Made by a program: the position numbers and the translations under genes. Of a stretch of 64,000 bases of DNA, positions 55,865 to 61,187 are shown piece by piece (within the stretch, counting starts at the first letter, position 1; each line of letters starts with the position of its first letter). Source of the stretch: Gillisia mitskevichiae (GTDB lineage Bacteria > Bacteroidota > Bacteroidia > Flavobacteriales > Flavobacteriaceae); the NCBI RefSeq assembly GCF_003634585.1, contig NZ_RBLG01000005.1, positions 62,001 to 126,000 of the forward strand, read 5' to 3'. The notes below the pieces were generated by a model that searched no databases, was not told the origin of the DNA, and saw nothing but the letters and a program-made list of their open reading frames with translations.

Positions 55865-56296
55865 ATGTATAGTACCAAAACCATTGCTGTAGATTTTGAT
55901 GGAACTATAGTAGAAAATAGGTACCCGGAAATTGGTAAACCTATCCTTTTTGCAATAGAAACATTACTCCACCTACAGAAAGATGGGCATTTATTGATCC
56001 TGTGGACCTATAGGTCTGGTAAAGAATTACGCGAAGCTGTGAAATTCTGCAATCAAAAAGGGATCGATTTTTATGCTGTAAATAAAAGTTACCCCGAAGA
56101 GATATACGACGAGTCGCTGAGTAGAAAAATTCAGGCAGACATTTTTATTGATGATAGAAATATTGGCGGACTTCGCGGTTGGGGTGAAATTTATCATGAA
56201 TTATCCTCCTCCCCAGAGAAAGCAAAGTTTACAAATAAGAAGAAAAAAGAAATATCAGGTAAGCGAATCCTGAATTTTATTAAATCGAAATTATGA
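55865..56296 (+). CDS. HAD-superfamily hydrolase, BT0820-like
   Basis: The 143-residue protein has HAD motif I as AVDFDGTIVE (nucleophile Asp in DFDGT), a TYRS-type motif II (LWTYRSGKE), and the final acidic motif DIFIDDRNIGG. The short length and the order match the BT_0820-type cap-less HAD group. It overlaps map by 4 nt (ATGA). It may dephosphorylate a small metabolite; the substrate is unknown. Confidence 0.85.
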   Translation: MYSTKTIAVDFDGTIVENRYPEIGKPILFAIETLLHLQKDGHLLILWTYRSGKELREAVKFCNQKGIDFYAVNKSYPEEIYDESLSRKIQADIFIDDRNIGGLRGWGEIYHELSSSPEKAKFTNKKKKEISGKRILNFIKSKL

Positions 56297-57108
56297 TTAT
56301 ATCCAAAAGCAAAGAGGAAATTGAATTAATGCGTGAGAGTGCTTTGGTTGTTTCTAGGACATTAGGAATGTTAGCTTCAGAAATAAAACCCGGGATCACC
56401 ACATTAAAATTAGACAAATTAGCTGAAGAGTATATTAGAGAACAGAATGCCATACCTGGATTCTTAGGTTTGTATGACTTTCCAAATACGTTATGCATGA
56501 GCCCTAATGCACAAGTGGTTCATGGAATTCCTAATAATAATCCTTTAGTTGAAGGTGATATTATTTCTATTGATTGTGGAGCCATAAAAAATGGATTTTA
56601 TGGAGATCATGCTTATACTTTTCCTATTGGCGAGGTTGCAGAGGAAACCAAAAAATTATTACAAGTTACAAAAGAATCACTTTACGAAGGCATCAACGAA
56701 TTTAGAGCTGGCAAACGAGTTGGTGACGTTGGGTACGCTATTCAAAAATATTGCGAAGATCATGGTTACGGGGTAGTTAGAGAGCTTGTAGGTCATGGTT
56801 TAGGTAAAACCATGCACGAGGATCCAGAAATGCCGAATTACGGCAAAAGAGGGCGCGGGAAAAAATTTATTGAAGGAATGGTTGTAGCTATAGAGCCTAT
56901 GATCAATCTTGGAACAAAAAATATCAATCAGCTTAATGATGGCTGGACAATTCTAACTGCAGATAATAAACCTAGTGCGCATTTTGAACATAATGTAGCA
57001 TTGGTAGATGGAAAGCCAGAATTGCTTTCTACCTTTAAATATATCTACGAAGCATTAGGAATTACAAGTAACGAAGAAGACAAATTTAGATCTAAAGTTT
57101 ATGGTTAA
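56293..57108 (+). CDS. map: Type I methionine aminopeptidase
   Basis: The 271-residue metalloenzyme removes the initiator methionine from nascent proteins. Metal ligands are visible in order: Asp in ISIDCGAIKNGFYGDHAYTF (two Asp), His in ELVGHGLGKTMHEDP, Glu in VVAIEPMINLG, and the final Glu in HFEHNVALV. It sits inside an overlapping operon, with the HAD gene before it (4-nt overlap) and the NUMOD4-like gene after it (8-nt overlap). It is not in the ribosomal protein operon, so this may be a second Map copy. Confidence 0.95.
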   Translation: MIISKSKEEIELMRESALVVSRTLGMLASEIKPGITTLKLDKLAEEYIREQNAIPGFLGLYDFPNTLCMSPNAQVVHGIPNNNPLVEGDIISIDCGAIKNGFYGDHAYTFPIGEVAEETKKLLQVTKESLYEGINEFRAGKRVGDVGYAIQKYCEDHGYGVVRELVGHGLGKTMHEDPEMPNYGKRGRGKKFIEGMVVAIEPMINLGTKNINQLNDGWTILTADNKPSAHFEHNVALVDGKPELLSTFKYIYEALGITSNEEDKFRSKVYG

Positions 57109-57664
57109 GAATTTCCGACAAGAGCAATGGGTAACCTACCACGATGAATCATGGCAGGATAGATTTGTGTATAAAATCTCCAACCATGGAAGAGTAATAA
57201 GTTTCGTTAAAAACCCAGAAGGCGAACTTATAAAAGGTGGTAGAACTGCAGGCTATTTATCTTTTGTAGTGAATCTAAAAAATGGAAAAAAGAAGAATTA
57301 TTATTTCCATAGAATCATCGCCGAGTGTTTTCTTGAAAAGAAAGAAGATGATCTTTTTGTGATCCATAAAAATTATAAGAAACAAGAAAACCAAGTTTCA
57401 AACTTAGCATGGACCAATAAAGAAGAATGGACAAAACATCAGTTTGGGAATCCTAATGTAAAGGAGAACAAAATGAAGCGTAAGCTAAGACAAGTAACCT
57501 CCTATTCTAAATTAAGCTACTCGCAGGCAGTAATTTTAAAAAAGAAATTATTAGATCCAAATAGAAAAACTAGAATACGCATATTAGCTAAGCAATTTGG
57601 AGTTTCTGAAATGCAGCTATACAGAATAAAATCTGGTGAGAACTGGGGTGATATTGAGGTATGA
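57101..57664 (+). CDS. NUMOD4/HNH-like protein with C-terminal helix-turn-helix
   Basis: The 187-residue protein begins with a NUMOD4-like segment (VYKISNHGRVISF, residues about 25-37). An HNH_3-like region follows (YYFHRIIAECFLEK to VSNLAW), where the usual VNHxDGNKxNN core reads VIHKNYKKQENQ. The third part is a basic helix-turn-helix (SYSQAVILKKKLL, RILAKQFGVSEMQLYRIKSG). NUMOD4-HNH proteins are homing endonucleases, but here the gene is fixed between map and a methyltransferase by 8-nt and 4-nt overlaps and the catalytic centre is altered. A DNA-binding regulator or a domesticated nuclease is likely. Confidence 0.75.
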   Translation: MVKNFRQEQWVTYHDESWQDRFVYKISNHGRVISFVKNPEGELIKGGRTAGYLSFVVNLKNGKKKNYYFHRIIAECFLEKKEDDLFVIHKNYKKQENQVSNLAWTNKEEWTKHQFGNPNVKENKMKRKLRQVTSYSKLSYSQAVILKKKLLDPNRKTRIRILAKQFGVSEMQLYRIKSGENWGDIEV

Positions 57665-58428
57665 TCCAAAAGGCATTTAAATTTTTTCTGAATAAAATTC
57701 CACGTCCGTTATTAATTAGAGCCAGTTATTTAATTAGACCGGTGATAGCATTAGGTTTGAGAGGCTCAAAATATACAGATCCTATAGACGGGAAATCCTT
57801 TCGTAAGTTTTTACCTTATGGGTACGAGCAACAACGGGAAAATGTACTTTCTCCCTCTACCCTCTCCCTAGAACGTCATCGATTACTGTGGCTATATTTA
57901 AAAAATGAAACGGGGCTTTTCACTGAAAAAATTAAGCTTTTACATTTCGCTCCGGAACAGGCTTTTTATAAGCGCTTCCAAAAAATGGAAAATCTAAAGT
58001 ATACAACTACAGACCTTAATTCCCCCTTAGCAGATGTAAAAGCTGATATTTGCAATTTACCTTTTAAAGATAACTCTTTCAATTTTATACTTTGTAATCA
58101 TGTTTTGGAGCATATTCCAGATGATACAAAGGCAATGAAAGAACTTTATAGAGTTTTGTCACCGGGTGGGATCGCAATTCTACAGATTCCTCAAGAATTA
58201 AACAGAGCTACCACCTTTGAAGATAATTCTATCACCTCCAAAAAGGAAAGAGCAAGGATCTTTGGGCAATATGATCATGTTCGGGTTTATGGGAGAGATT
58301 ATTTTGATAAGCTAAGAAGTATAGGTTTTAAGGTGAAAGAAGTGGATTATACAAATATGTTGACTCCTTCAGAAATTGACTCATATAGGCTAGCTCCAGG
58401 AGAGGTCATTCCAGTTTGCTCAAAGTAA
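57661..58428 (+). CDS. Class I SAM-dependent methyltransferase
   Basis: The 255-residue protein has a methyltransferase_11-type core: a modified motif I in KLLHFAPEQAFYKRF, KYTTTDLNSPLADVKADI with the acidic residue, and NFILCNHVLEHIPDDTKAMKELYRVLSPGG. The glycine-rich motif I is unusual (HFAPE rather than DxGxG), a trait seen in a Bacteroidota-specific group. It starts in the stop of the NUMOD4-like gene (ATGA), so it is the last gene of the HAD-map operon. The methyl acceptor is unknown. Confidence 0.87.
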   Translation: MIQKAFKFFLNKIPRPLLIRASYLIRPVIALGLRGSKYTDPIDGKSFRKFLPYGYEQQRENVLSPSTLSLERHRLLWLYLKNETGLFTEKIKLLHFAPEQAFYKRFQKMENLKYTTTDLNSPLADVKADICNLPFKDNSFNFILCNHVLEHIPDDTKAMKELYRVLSPGGIAILQIPQELNRATTFEDNSITSKKERARIFGQYDHVRVYGRDYFDKLRSIGFKVKEVDYTNMLTPSEIDSYRLAPGEVIPVCSK

Positions 58429-58432
58429 GAAC

Positions 58433-59464
58433 TTATTCGGTTCTCAGAACTTTTTTAAATCCGGGAGTGCTAAAGACTTTTACTTCTTCATCTTCAGCAT
58501 AAATAAAATAAACATCCACATCTTTGATTTTAGATAACATTTCTTGAGAACGCTCCAGCCCCAAAGCCATAAATGCTGTTGCATAACCATCTGCTAATGC
58601 ACAATTTTTAGCCAGTACAGAAGCGCTTAATAAATTACTCTTTTCAGACCTTCCTGTTATAGGATTTATAGTATGAACATACCGTTGACCGTTCAAGGAA
58701 TCTAATCTAAATTTTCTGTAATTTCCAGAAGTTGCCATTCCCCTATCTTTTAGATATAATGTAGCTTCAAATTCCCGCTCCCCTTCTTTTTGTAATGGAT
58801 CGTCTATAGCTACCACCCAAGGTTCTTCAGAATCCATATTAGAACCTTTTGCCACGAGCTCTCCTCCTACTTCTACTAAATAATTAGCTACCTTTTTAGA
58901 ATTCAAATATTCAGCGATCACATCTACTGTAAAGCCCTTCGCTATTGCATTAAAATCTAAATATATTCCGGGAAGATCCTTAACAATTCTATTTTCAGAA
59001 GTAAGCTTAAGCTTATTGAGACCGACATATTGTAACAAAGAGTCTATTATACGGGTATTTAAGCTGTCCTTTCTACTCTCCGGACCAAAACCATAAGCAT
59101 TTACCAAATTGCCAACTGTGGGATCAAAAAAGCCATTACTCTCCAAGTAAATTTTTTCTGAAGCTTTAAAAACTTTTTTGAAGTTATTATCTATTACAAT
59201 GGAAGTGTCTCCAGTATTGATCTTAGAGATATCTGAATCCGGTTGGTAGGTACTCATAGACCTATTAATCACTTCAAAAATAGAATCCAATCCTTTTTCT
59301 ATTGGAAGTTCTGTATCATGAAAAAATTTCACTTGATAGGTTGTTCCTAAAGCTTCACCTGTAAAAACTTGAGCCTTCTGGTTCTTAGCACAGCTAGTAA
59401 TTAGAAATCCAAATGAAAAGGTGACTAGTACTATTTTGAATTTAAATCTCTTGTAGACCTTCAT
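58433..59464 (-). CDS. apbE: FAD:protein FMN transferase, lipoprotein
   Basis: The 343-residue ApbE enzyme attaches FMN covalently to threonines of target flavoproteins in the periplasm. The lipobox is LITSCAKNQ (Cys25). Landmarks are ALGTTYQVKFFH, IYLDFNAIAKGFTVDVIA and NYLVEVGGELVAKG, plus VHTINPITGRS. Its natural targets are NqrB and NqrC, encoded just upstream in the same direction. It overlaps the 119-residue gene by 23 nt. Confidence 0.95.
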   Translation of the reverse strand: MKVYKRFKFKIVLVTFSFGFLITSCAKNQKAQVFTGEALGTTYQVKFFHDTELPIEKGLDSIFEVINRSMSTYQPDSDISKINTGDTSIVIDNNFKKVFKASEKIYLESNGFFDPTVGNLVNAYGFGPESRKDSLNTRIIDSLLQYVGLNKLKLTSENRIVKDLPGIYLDFNAIAKGFTVDVIAEYLNSKKVANYLVEVGGELVAKGSNMDSEEPWVVAIDDPLQKEGEREFEATLYLKDRGMATSGNYRKFRLDSLNGQRYVHTINPITGRSEKSNLLSASVLAKNCALADGYATAFMALGLERSQEMLSKIKDVDVYFIYAEDEEVKVFSTPGFKKVLRTE

Positions 59465-59801
59465 AATTTACGGTGTAAGCTTCAACTTTTAATACAGGTT
59501 GATCATAATCTTCAGAATTTGCAAGGCCAACTCCCGCATAATAAGTTTTCGCGTTGAATTTTAATGCGTGCTCCTTAATGACTTTCAATAACTGGGGATC
59601 ATAATATTTAGGATCCACAGGATATGGGATAGCACGAACGATAACAAAATTCAATTTCGTGTCCTTTAAAGCAACAAATTGAGGATTTCGTTTTAATTGG
59701 CTATTCACACCAAGAAACTCGTATCCATTATCTTCCAATTCCTTGCCTACAATATTCATAGCAAGATTATGTAATTCCTGATCTGATAATTTCTCTTTCA
59801 T
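59442..59801 (-). CDS. Unnamed 119-residue protein between nqrF and apbE
   Basis: The 119-residue soluble protein has mixed alpha/beta character, no signal peptide, no cysteine and no membrane segment. Landmarks are ELEDNGYEFLGVNSQLKRNP, FVALKDTKLNFVIVRAIPYP and AKTYYAGVGLANSEDYDQP. Homologues in flavobacteria are sometimes labelled as an NQR subunit F, but nothing in it resembles NqrF. The ATG at 59801 is chosen because the TTG three codons upstream lies in a -7 box. It has its own promoter and overlaps apbE by 23 nt. A role in flavin attachment or NQR assembly is an inference from position. Confidence 0.75.
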   Translation of the reverse strand: MKEKLSDQELHNLAMNIVGKELEDNGYEFLGVNSQLKRNPQFVALKDTKLNFVIVRAIPYPVDPKYYDPQLLKVIKEHALKFNAKTYYAGVGLANSEDYDQPVLKVEAYTVNYEGLQEI

Positions 59802-59807
59802 ACTTTT

Positions 59808-59815
59808 CAAAAATA
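59808..59815 (-). promoter_or_regulatory. -7 promoter box of the small gene-apbE unit
   Basis: The minus strand reads TATTTTTG, an exact TAnnTTTG match, 6 nt before the ATG at 59801. It lies downstream of the nqr terminator, so apbE has its own promoter. Confidence 0.62.
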
Positions 59816-59835
59816 CGATTATTGCTAAACAGCTA

Positions 59836-59873
59836 ATAAAAAAAAGACCGACTATTTACATAGGTCGGTCTTT
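59836..59873 (-). terminator. Rho-independent terminator of the nqr operon
   Basis: On the minus strand AAAGACCGAC and GTCGGTCTTT form a 10-bp stem with an 11-nt loop followed by a T-run. It lies 25 nt after the nqrF stop. Confidence 0.88.
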
Positions 59874-59897: not shown

Positions 59898-61187
59898 TTA
59901 CCCACCAAAATCATCGAATCTTACATTTTCTGGAGGTACACCTAGATCCTCGGTCATTTTTTCTACGGCCTTATTCATTAAAGGAGGTCCACAGAAATAA
60001 TATTCGATATCTTCAGGCGTATCATGGTATTGCAAATAATTGTCTATTACCACTTGGTGAATAAATCCTACAAATCCATCTCCTTCTCCTTCAATTCCAT
60101 CCTTTACTTTCCAATTATCTTCTTCCATTGGTTCAGATAAAGCTAAGTAAAATTTAAAGTTCGGGAAATCTCTTTCTAGAGCTCTAAAGTGCTCTGTGTA
60201 GAATAATTCTCTTTTAGATCGTCCTCCATACCAGTAACTAACTTTTCTTCCTGTTTGAAGGGTTCTGAATAAATGATACAAGTGAGAACGCATTGGTGCC
60301 ATACCAGCTCCACCACCTACATATAGCATTTCTGAATCACTTTCATTAATAAAGAATTCTCCATAAGGTCCAGAGATAACAACTTTATCACCTTCTTTTC
60401 TTGAGAAAATATAAGAAGAAGCAATTCCAGGATTTACATCCATCCACCCATTCTTAGCTCTATCGAAAGGAGGTGTAGCTACACGAACATTAAGCATGAT
60501 CTCACGACCTTCAGCAGGATAAGAAGCCATGGAGTAAGCACGTTCTACCGTTTCAGTATTTTTCATCTGTAAAGGCCAAAGCTTAAACTTATCCCATTCA
60601 TCTTTAAACTTATCCGGCTCTCCAGGGTGTTCATCTGGATGGGCAGTTATATCCATATCTTCAAATTTCACCTCACATTGAGGTATTTCAATTTGAATAT
60701 ATCCACCTGCTTTATAATCCATTACTTCAGGAATTTCTACTACGAATTCCTTAATAAACGACGCTACATTGTAATTACGAACTACGGTAGCCTCCCATTT
60801 TTTAATACCAAATACCTCCTCAGGAATCTGGATCTTCATGTCTTCTTTTACCTTAACTTGGCAACCAAGTCTCCATCCTTGAGCGATCTCTTTTCTTGTG
60901 AAATGAGGTTCTTCTGTTGGTAAAATAGTTCCACCTCCATCTGTAACTATACATTTACATTGGATACAAGTTCCACCACCACCACAAGCAGATGGTAAGA
61001 ATAATTTGTTCTCACCAAGGGTAGAAAGTAAAGTTCCACCAGATCCTACTTGAAGATCTTTTTCTCCATTCACACTAATAGTAACTGGTCCAGAAGGCAC
61101 CAATTTTGCTTTAGCGCCCAGTAATATGGAAACTAATAAGAGTATAAGTACTAAAAATACAATTACACTTGCTATAATAACTGTCAT
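59898..61187 (-). CDS. nqrF: Na+-translocating NADH-quinone reductase subunit F
   Basis: The 429-residue protein is the NADH-oxidising entry of the sodium pump. It has an N-terminal membrane helix (about 3-24), a 2Fe-2S domain with [10 protein letters not shown] and the later cysteine in RLGCQVKV, the FAD site RAYSMASYP, and the NADH site [12 protein letters not shown], ending [11 protein letters not shown] and the aromatic-rich FDDFGG tail. All expected parts are present. It is the last gene of the nqr operon, 15 nt after nqrE, and is followed by a terminator. Confidence 0.97.

Follow-up and report, generated by a model that had tools for sequence, protein, structure and literature searches.

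A small protein with a predicted nuclease fold and altered catalytic positions is encoded between nqrF and apbE in Gillisia mitskevichiae and related Flavobacteriaceae

An unnamed gene located between nqrF and apbE in Gillisia mitskevichiae encodes a 119-residue protein that may be, with a probability that we put at about one half, a cytosolic and catalytically dead member of the PD-(D/E)XK fold that belongs to a module for NQR biogenesis in Flavobacteriaceae and is made together with ApbE. NQR, the Na+-translocating NADH:quinone reductase, is a respiratory sodium pump, the assembly of which is known mainly from Vibrio and its close relatives, and a nearly family-wide gene tied to it would point directly to an assembly or control factor that is still missing. 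If true, a dead PD-(D/E)XK fold employed for something other than nucleic acids would represent an uncommon switch of function, and the predicted leaderless start, which is kept among relatives, would make the locus a natural system in which to study leaderless translation, rare in this phylum. The modelled fold, the lost catalytic residues, the distribution, the synteny, and the anatomy of promoter and terminator were computed, and the cytosolic place, the binding of protein and the role in NQR biogenesis are the parts that we infer. A passage-level search of the literature, which shows little, returned no account of the gene.

The locus and its predicted expression signals

All features described here lie on the minus strand of the window, i.e. 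the whole 64,000-nucleotide stretch of DNA that was analysed. The gene nqrF (59898..61187; TIGR01941, 573 bits) is preceded upstream by nqrE, nqrD, nqrC and part of nqrB and is the last gene before a predicted intrinsic terminator (59836..59873), which separates it from the small gene (59442..59801). The latter comprises 119 codons with an ATG start, encodes an acidic protein and, according to the ORF coordinates, overlaps by 23 nt (59442..59464) with apbE (58433..59464), which encodes an FAD:protein FMN transferase (PF02424, E 1.2e-75) whose N-terminus is, by eye, of the lipoprotein type with the lipobox LITSC. The coordinates given in a preliminary description for the terminator, the -7 box, the 119-codon gene and the overlap proved exact to the base.

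Positions 59885-59825 fold with -18.7 kcal/mol, whereas shuffles average -5.93 (z = -5.4) and 0/200 of them are as low. The hairpin at 59873-59836 carries a U run; its stem has a bulge, and it is absent from the list of a generic terminator scan. Downstream of it, the predicted -7 promoter box TATTTTTG (59808..59815), an exact match to TAnnTTTG, ends six bases ahead of the ATG at 59801. A TTTG at -33 is not clear by eye upstream of the small gene, and this element is described as weak in F. johnsoniae in excerpts of a published mapping (PMC6847099), which also place the TAnnTTTG box at -12 to -5 relative to the RNA start. By this spacing, the RNA of the small gene would start at 59803 or 59802, with a leader of 1–2 nt. 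Leaderless mRNAs are given as 5.5% in F. psychrophilum in an excerpt of another study (PMC9723704). A sigma-70 promoter scan was dropped as evidence because its promoter count equalled that of shuffles.

The frequency of the box was assessed in 464 kb of this genome, where it starts at exactly -12 before 6/369 ORFs compared with a mean of 0.21 in shuffles. A small peak is found at -14 to -11 (10/369 ORFs), whereas boxes are few between -22 and -15 and more frequent between -33 and -23; the small gene is shorter than the length cut-off of this count and hence outside it. Within the window, two exact boxes at -12 were found against 1.54 expected, and the small gene, with its box at -14, is not among the two. 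Homologous loci were compared in a non-random sample of 67, which comprised the best-scoring hits, Flavobacterium, named relatives and divergent loci, and from which four of the 71 distinct hits (distant domains) were left out. The box starts precisely at -12 relative to the ATG in 32/67 loci and at -14 in 4/67 (Gillisia), i.e. in 36/67 altogether, spanning 18 or 19 genera in a hand count from genus codes. The -7 box of the small gene is therefore more than chance, given both the count of 6 against 0.21 and its retention in these 36 loci. Since the published spacing is -12 to -5, the box predicts for all 36 that the ATG is the first RNA base or at most two bases off, i.e. a leaderless mRNA. 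In Gillisia sp. CAL575 (L019:6052-8000), nqrF and the small gene are about 1.9 kb apart and the box TATTTTTG is still kept.

A hairpin that resembles a terminator, with a folding energy of -9 kcal/mol or lower, was found between nqrF and the small gene in 34 of the 37 loci in which the two are adjacent. Within this group, the leaderless position lacks a box in 20/37 loci, and in 16/37 no box occurs within 60 nt. Most of the 20 show a hairpin shortly upstream of the ATG, and their expression must then depend on read-through or on another promoter. The separate transcription unit behind the nqr terminator that had been proposed in the preliminary description is likely, as the terminator and the consensus -7 box are both widely kept.

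Predicted fold and substituted catalytic positions

Up to E 10, neither Pfam nor NCBIfam gave a match for the small protein; PADLOC gave nothing and PDB sequences gave chance-level hits only, and a tblastn search of phages and plasmids gave no match up to E 1. Neither the window protein nor any of five whole or partial relatives matched UPF0102 (PF02021) up to E 10, and a chance-level Pfam hit, IL12 (E 0.21), was recorded for one of four relatives or parts tested. The model of the window protein itself was poor (pLDDT 63.5) and retrieved no fold match. When the Mesonia orthologue (64% identical) was placed first, the better of two tries with the same seven sequences, a model with pLDDT 78.9 and pTM 0.75 was obtained, the elements of which are H6-23, E27-32, E40-45, E48-58, H68-79 and E84-94. 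This model contains the alpha-beta-beta-beta-alpha-beta core common to PD-(D/E)XK proteins, a fold that had been expected before the test from the order of the elements and a UPF0102 pattern.

Foldseek searches with the Mesonia model returned splicing endonucleases and Hjc resolvases as the best solved structures, with a best E of 0.013, and a search of a viral structure library gave no match at E 0.001 or better. Superposition with VIA-align gave Z 10.0 for the splicing-endonuclease chain 2zyz_C (82 aligned, 2.3 Å), Z 9.5 for the Hjc resolvase 1gef (91 aligned, 2.3 Å), Z 8.4 for 2wcw (86 aligned, 2.4 Å) and Z 7.5 for the UPF0102 protein 3fov (82 aligned, 3.0 Å). Fourteen chains reached Z 8 or more, and nearly all of the best 50 have the PD-(D/E)XK fold, as assigned from the structure titles.

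At the sequence level, the link to UPF0102 is weak. The sole hit of E. coli YraN among all loci was the small-gene homologue of genome G107 (E 0.03, in three overlapping loci). A profile comparison of YraN with the small protein scored 30.2 over 57 columns, whereas none of 300 permuted controls exceeded 20.8; the score fell to 27.6 after three distant domains were added. With 20 natural families as controls, the runner-up reached 18.9 from the YraN side and 27.2 from the small-protein side. In the alignment, YraN residues E24, D51 and E64, which we take by fold family to be catalytic, pair with M15, F42 and position 54 (I54) of the small protein. M15 and F42 are invariant (67/67), position 54 holds I, V, L or M in every sequence, and position 56 is mostly R, K or Q, so that the acidic catalytic residues of the PD-(D/E)XK fold (helix-1 Glu, Asp, Glu-x-Lys) are not present. 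As judged from the model, the protein is probably a catalytically dead nuclease-fold protein, and it has probably shifted from binding nucleic acid to binding protein.

With UPF0102/YraN, Hjc and the tRNA-splicing endonuclease subunits, the protein would thus share the order helix, three strands, helix, strand. Unlike them, it has hydrophobic residues in place of the catalytic acids, two of them invariant, an acidic pI (median 6.1, with 53/67 under 6.5, compared with basic YraN in 10/11 sequences), no Pfam hit, and a gene tied to NQR and apbE. An inactivated nuclease-fold domain is described for RecC in an excerpt of a published paper (PMC1185551), and the small protein may resemble it in fold, as a PD-(D/E)XK domain without metal-binding residues and with a non-catalytic job; the RecC domain, unlike the small protein, sits in a DNA-repair complex.

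Cysteines number 0 to 2 per sequence (n=67), and the single common one (55/67) is Ala in the window protein, which has no Cys; an Fe-S role was rejected on this ground. The label "NQR subunit F" was likewise rejected, in agreement with the preliminary description, which had called it wrong: searches of Pfam and NCBIfam up to E 10 hit no 2Fe-2S (Fer2), FAD or NAD domain, and the real nqrF adjoins upstream.

Gene order and co-occurrence with NQR

The apbE start lies within 70 nt of the small gene in 60/64 evaluable loci, with gaps of -47 to +61 nt and the three loci without visible apbE left out, while nqrF is directly upstream in 37/67 distinct loci, many of which were available with 1.5-kb flanks only, so that "not adjacent" does not mean "far away". 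On these counts, the small gene and apbE form a stable pair and nqr is a looser neighbour. Three loci (L022-L024) keep the small gene without any nqr gene close upstream. In genus g3 (L027:10004-11730 and L028:8537-10251), it is found away from apbE and follows, directly or with a 1-base overlap, not nqrF but an ORF that resembles, by eye, a DEAD-box RNA helicase, and in L028 neither apbE nor nqr is found within 20 kb. Genome G413 (L064:432-1872) has two copies of the small gene about 0.7 kb apart, the second of which alone precedes apbE, and genome G312 likewise shows two matches to the profile. A contig from a viral collection (L178:279-536) contains the end of nqrF together with a hairpin, a -12 box and some 70 initial codons of the small gene; beyond these, the frame no longer matches the family, and next comes a repressor-like ORF on the minus strand (1060-1755). 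This is either a phage junction inside the small gene or a chimeric contig.

Presence was searched with a profile built from 17 relatives, which found the small gene in 274/298 Flavobacteriaceae genomes and 173/187 genera, nearly always as a single copy. A phylum-wide sample of 296 genomes gave 17 hits, 15 of them in Flavobacteriaceae; the other two, together with further hits outside the family, all belong to one other family (f17). There, a distant version forms the C-terminal half of proteins of ~260 aa (e.g. L016:1297-2082, also L017 and L018), the N-terminal half being a domain of unassigned kind. A nearby search around these proteins gave no apbE or nqr hit, and two of them run against Pfam gave none.

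Within Flavobacteriaceae, nqrF scores above its curated cut-off in 294/298 genomes, and the small gene is present in 273 of these 294 and in one of the four others. The remaining 21 nqrF-positive genomes do without it, so the small gene is not essential to NQR as such. Most members of Flavobacterium lack NQR, which makes the genus a natural test. An nqrF above the cut-off was found in 17 of 150 Flavobacterium genomes. The family type accounts for 11 of these and a distant type for five; the last genome (G684) was left out of both groups for its partial hit in a 775-aa ORF and a branch length of 10. The small gene is present in 11/11 genomes with family-type nqrF and in 0/139 others (Fisher p 7e-17; this and the other association counts are uncorrected for relatedness). 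In contrast, apbE is no predictor (p 0.21): it is found in 126/150 genomes, 115 of which lack the small gene. The coupling to apbE and not to nqrF that was put forward in the preliminary description therefore holds for position (60/64 vs 37/67), but presence follows family-type NQR, not apbE. Homologues apart from apbE or nqr, which that description had named as evidence against its reading, were found in part: genome G401 has the small gene and apbE adjacent with both nqrF and nqrB missing, and the distant f17 domain occurs with neither apbE nor nqr nearby.

The five distant-type Flavobacterium nqrF genes (L147-L151) form a separate branch of the tree, and in these loci the small gene is absent and apbE follows nqrF directly at -11 to +57 nt; a horizontally gained pump has perhaps replaced the lost family type. 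In nine loci without the small gene that have apbE near nqrF, apbE follows at -11 to +152 nt; seven have gaps of at most 57 nt and no notable fold, and two (L136, L137) have a hairpin. Because apbE follows nqrF closely where the small gene is missing, and the distant types without it branch apart, its insertion between nqrF and apbE is plausible. At least three changes on the nqrF tree explain its presence, or two if starred branches alone count, and gain and loss are indistinguishable from this tree.

Cellular place, candidate role and alternatives

Neither a hydrophobic segment nor a signal peptide was found in the 67 small proteins, for which the highest 19-residue hydropathy is 1.4. The linked ApbEs carry a lipoprotein signal in 53/60 cases under a strict pattern, and the other seven show a hydrophobic stretch followed by Cys. 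Flavin attachment would thus take place outside the cytosol, and a direct part of the small protein in it is unlikely because the protein has no export signal and ApbE acts on the other side. The role in flavin attachment or FMN handling that the preliminary description had favoured accordingly fits the topology badly in its direct form. An ApbE helper that supplies or loads FAD or FMN for flavinylation of NqrB and NqrC would be in keeping with apbE as the closest and most constant neighbour, often overlapping, and with the small gene/apbE pair retained in G401. Besides the mismatch between a predicted lipoprotein and a partner that lacks both export signal and membrane segment, this explanation faces the lack of any flavin-binding family in Pfam and NCBIfam and the 115/126 apbE-bearing Flavobacterium genomes without the small gene, and we regard it as unlikely, albeit the best of the alternatives.

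Somewhat more doubtful is a passenger role, in which a housekeeping protein found throughout the family and unrelated in function shares the apbE transcript by chance. The 21/294 nqrF-positive genomes without the gene, its occurrence in L028 away from apbE and nqr, and the distant copy as a domain of other proteins would all suit such a passenger, but the absence of the gene from all 139 Flavobacterium genomes without family-type NQR is not what one would expect of a free housekeeping gene. Least credible is a nucleic-acid-binding regulator, in which the dead fold would bind RNA or DNA and control how far transcription reads through the nqrF terminator or how strongly nqr and the apbE unit are expressed: the modelled nuclease-type fold, the 20/37 nqrF-adjacent loci without a leaderless-position box, where a hairpin precedes most starts and expression may need read-through, and the helicase-like ORF ahead of the gene in g3 are offset by the mostly acidic protein, unlike 10/11 YraN sequences, and by retention of the gene without nqr close upstream (L022-L024).

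In the NQR-biogenesis reading, which we prefer, one transcription unit would yield the small protein together with the NQR-linked flavin transferase ApbE. The terminator would isolate this unit from the nqr operon, and its own promoter would drive it in roughly half of the loci, producing an mRNA that is leaderless or nearly so. On the cytosolic side, the small protein may bind a protein of the pump or of its assembly path, e.g. NqrF, NqrA or unassembled membrane subunits, and aid maturation or level control by holding or checking a subunit or by setting the amount of pump, while ApbE would attach FMN on the opposite side of the membrane.

As a small accessory gene in an nqr–apbE neighbourhood, nqrM is the nearest functional analogy, and its product (DUF539) has four conserved Cys. 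The small protein differs from NqrM in that it has no membrane segment and at most one well-kept Cys. Identity with NqrM (PF04400) was rejected on the absence of a Pfam hit, the hydropathy maximum of 1.4 and the 0–2 Cys over 67 sequences; a genome-wide scan for NqrM found it in 0/298 genomes, with the controls silent as well. Excerpts of a published study describe NqrM as a membrane-bound maturation protein of Vibrio NQR, encoded beside apbE and acting in insertion of the [2Fe-2S] cluster, and the Vibrio-type accessory genes as co-transcribed with nqr (PMC12174285). The arrangement studied here resembles the Vibrio nqrABCDEF operon with apbE and nqrM in that apbE is downstream of nqrF, but a predicted terminator, and often a promoter of its own, separates the small gene and apbE from nqr. 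We tentatively propose, with less confidence than the reading itself, that Flavobacteriaceae recruited a dead nuclease-fold protein as a dedicated NQR accessory factor of a third kind, besides ApbE and NqrM, and inserted it between nqrF and apbE along with a terminator and, frequently, a leaderless promoter, which would uncouple the provision of maturation factors from that of the pump.

Beyond apbE, the window contains an adjoining predicted methyltransferase gene (57661-58428) and a map-like gene (56293-57108), the latter presumably encoding methionine aminopeptidase. Both stay beside apbE in many relatives, also where nqr is absent (L146).
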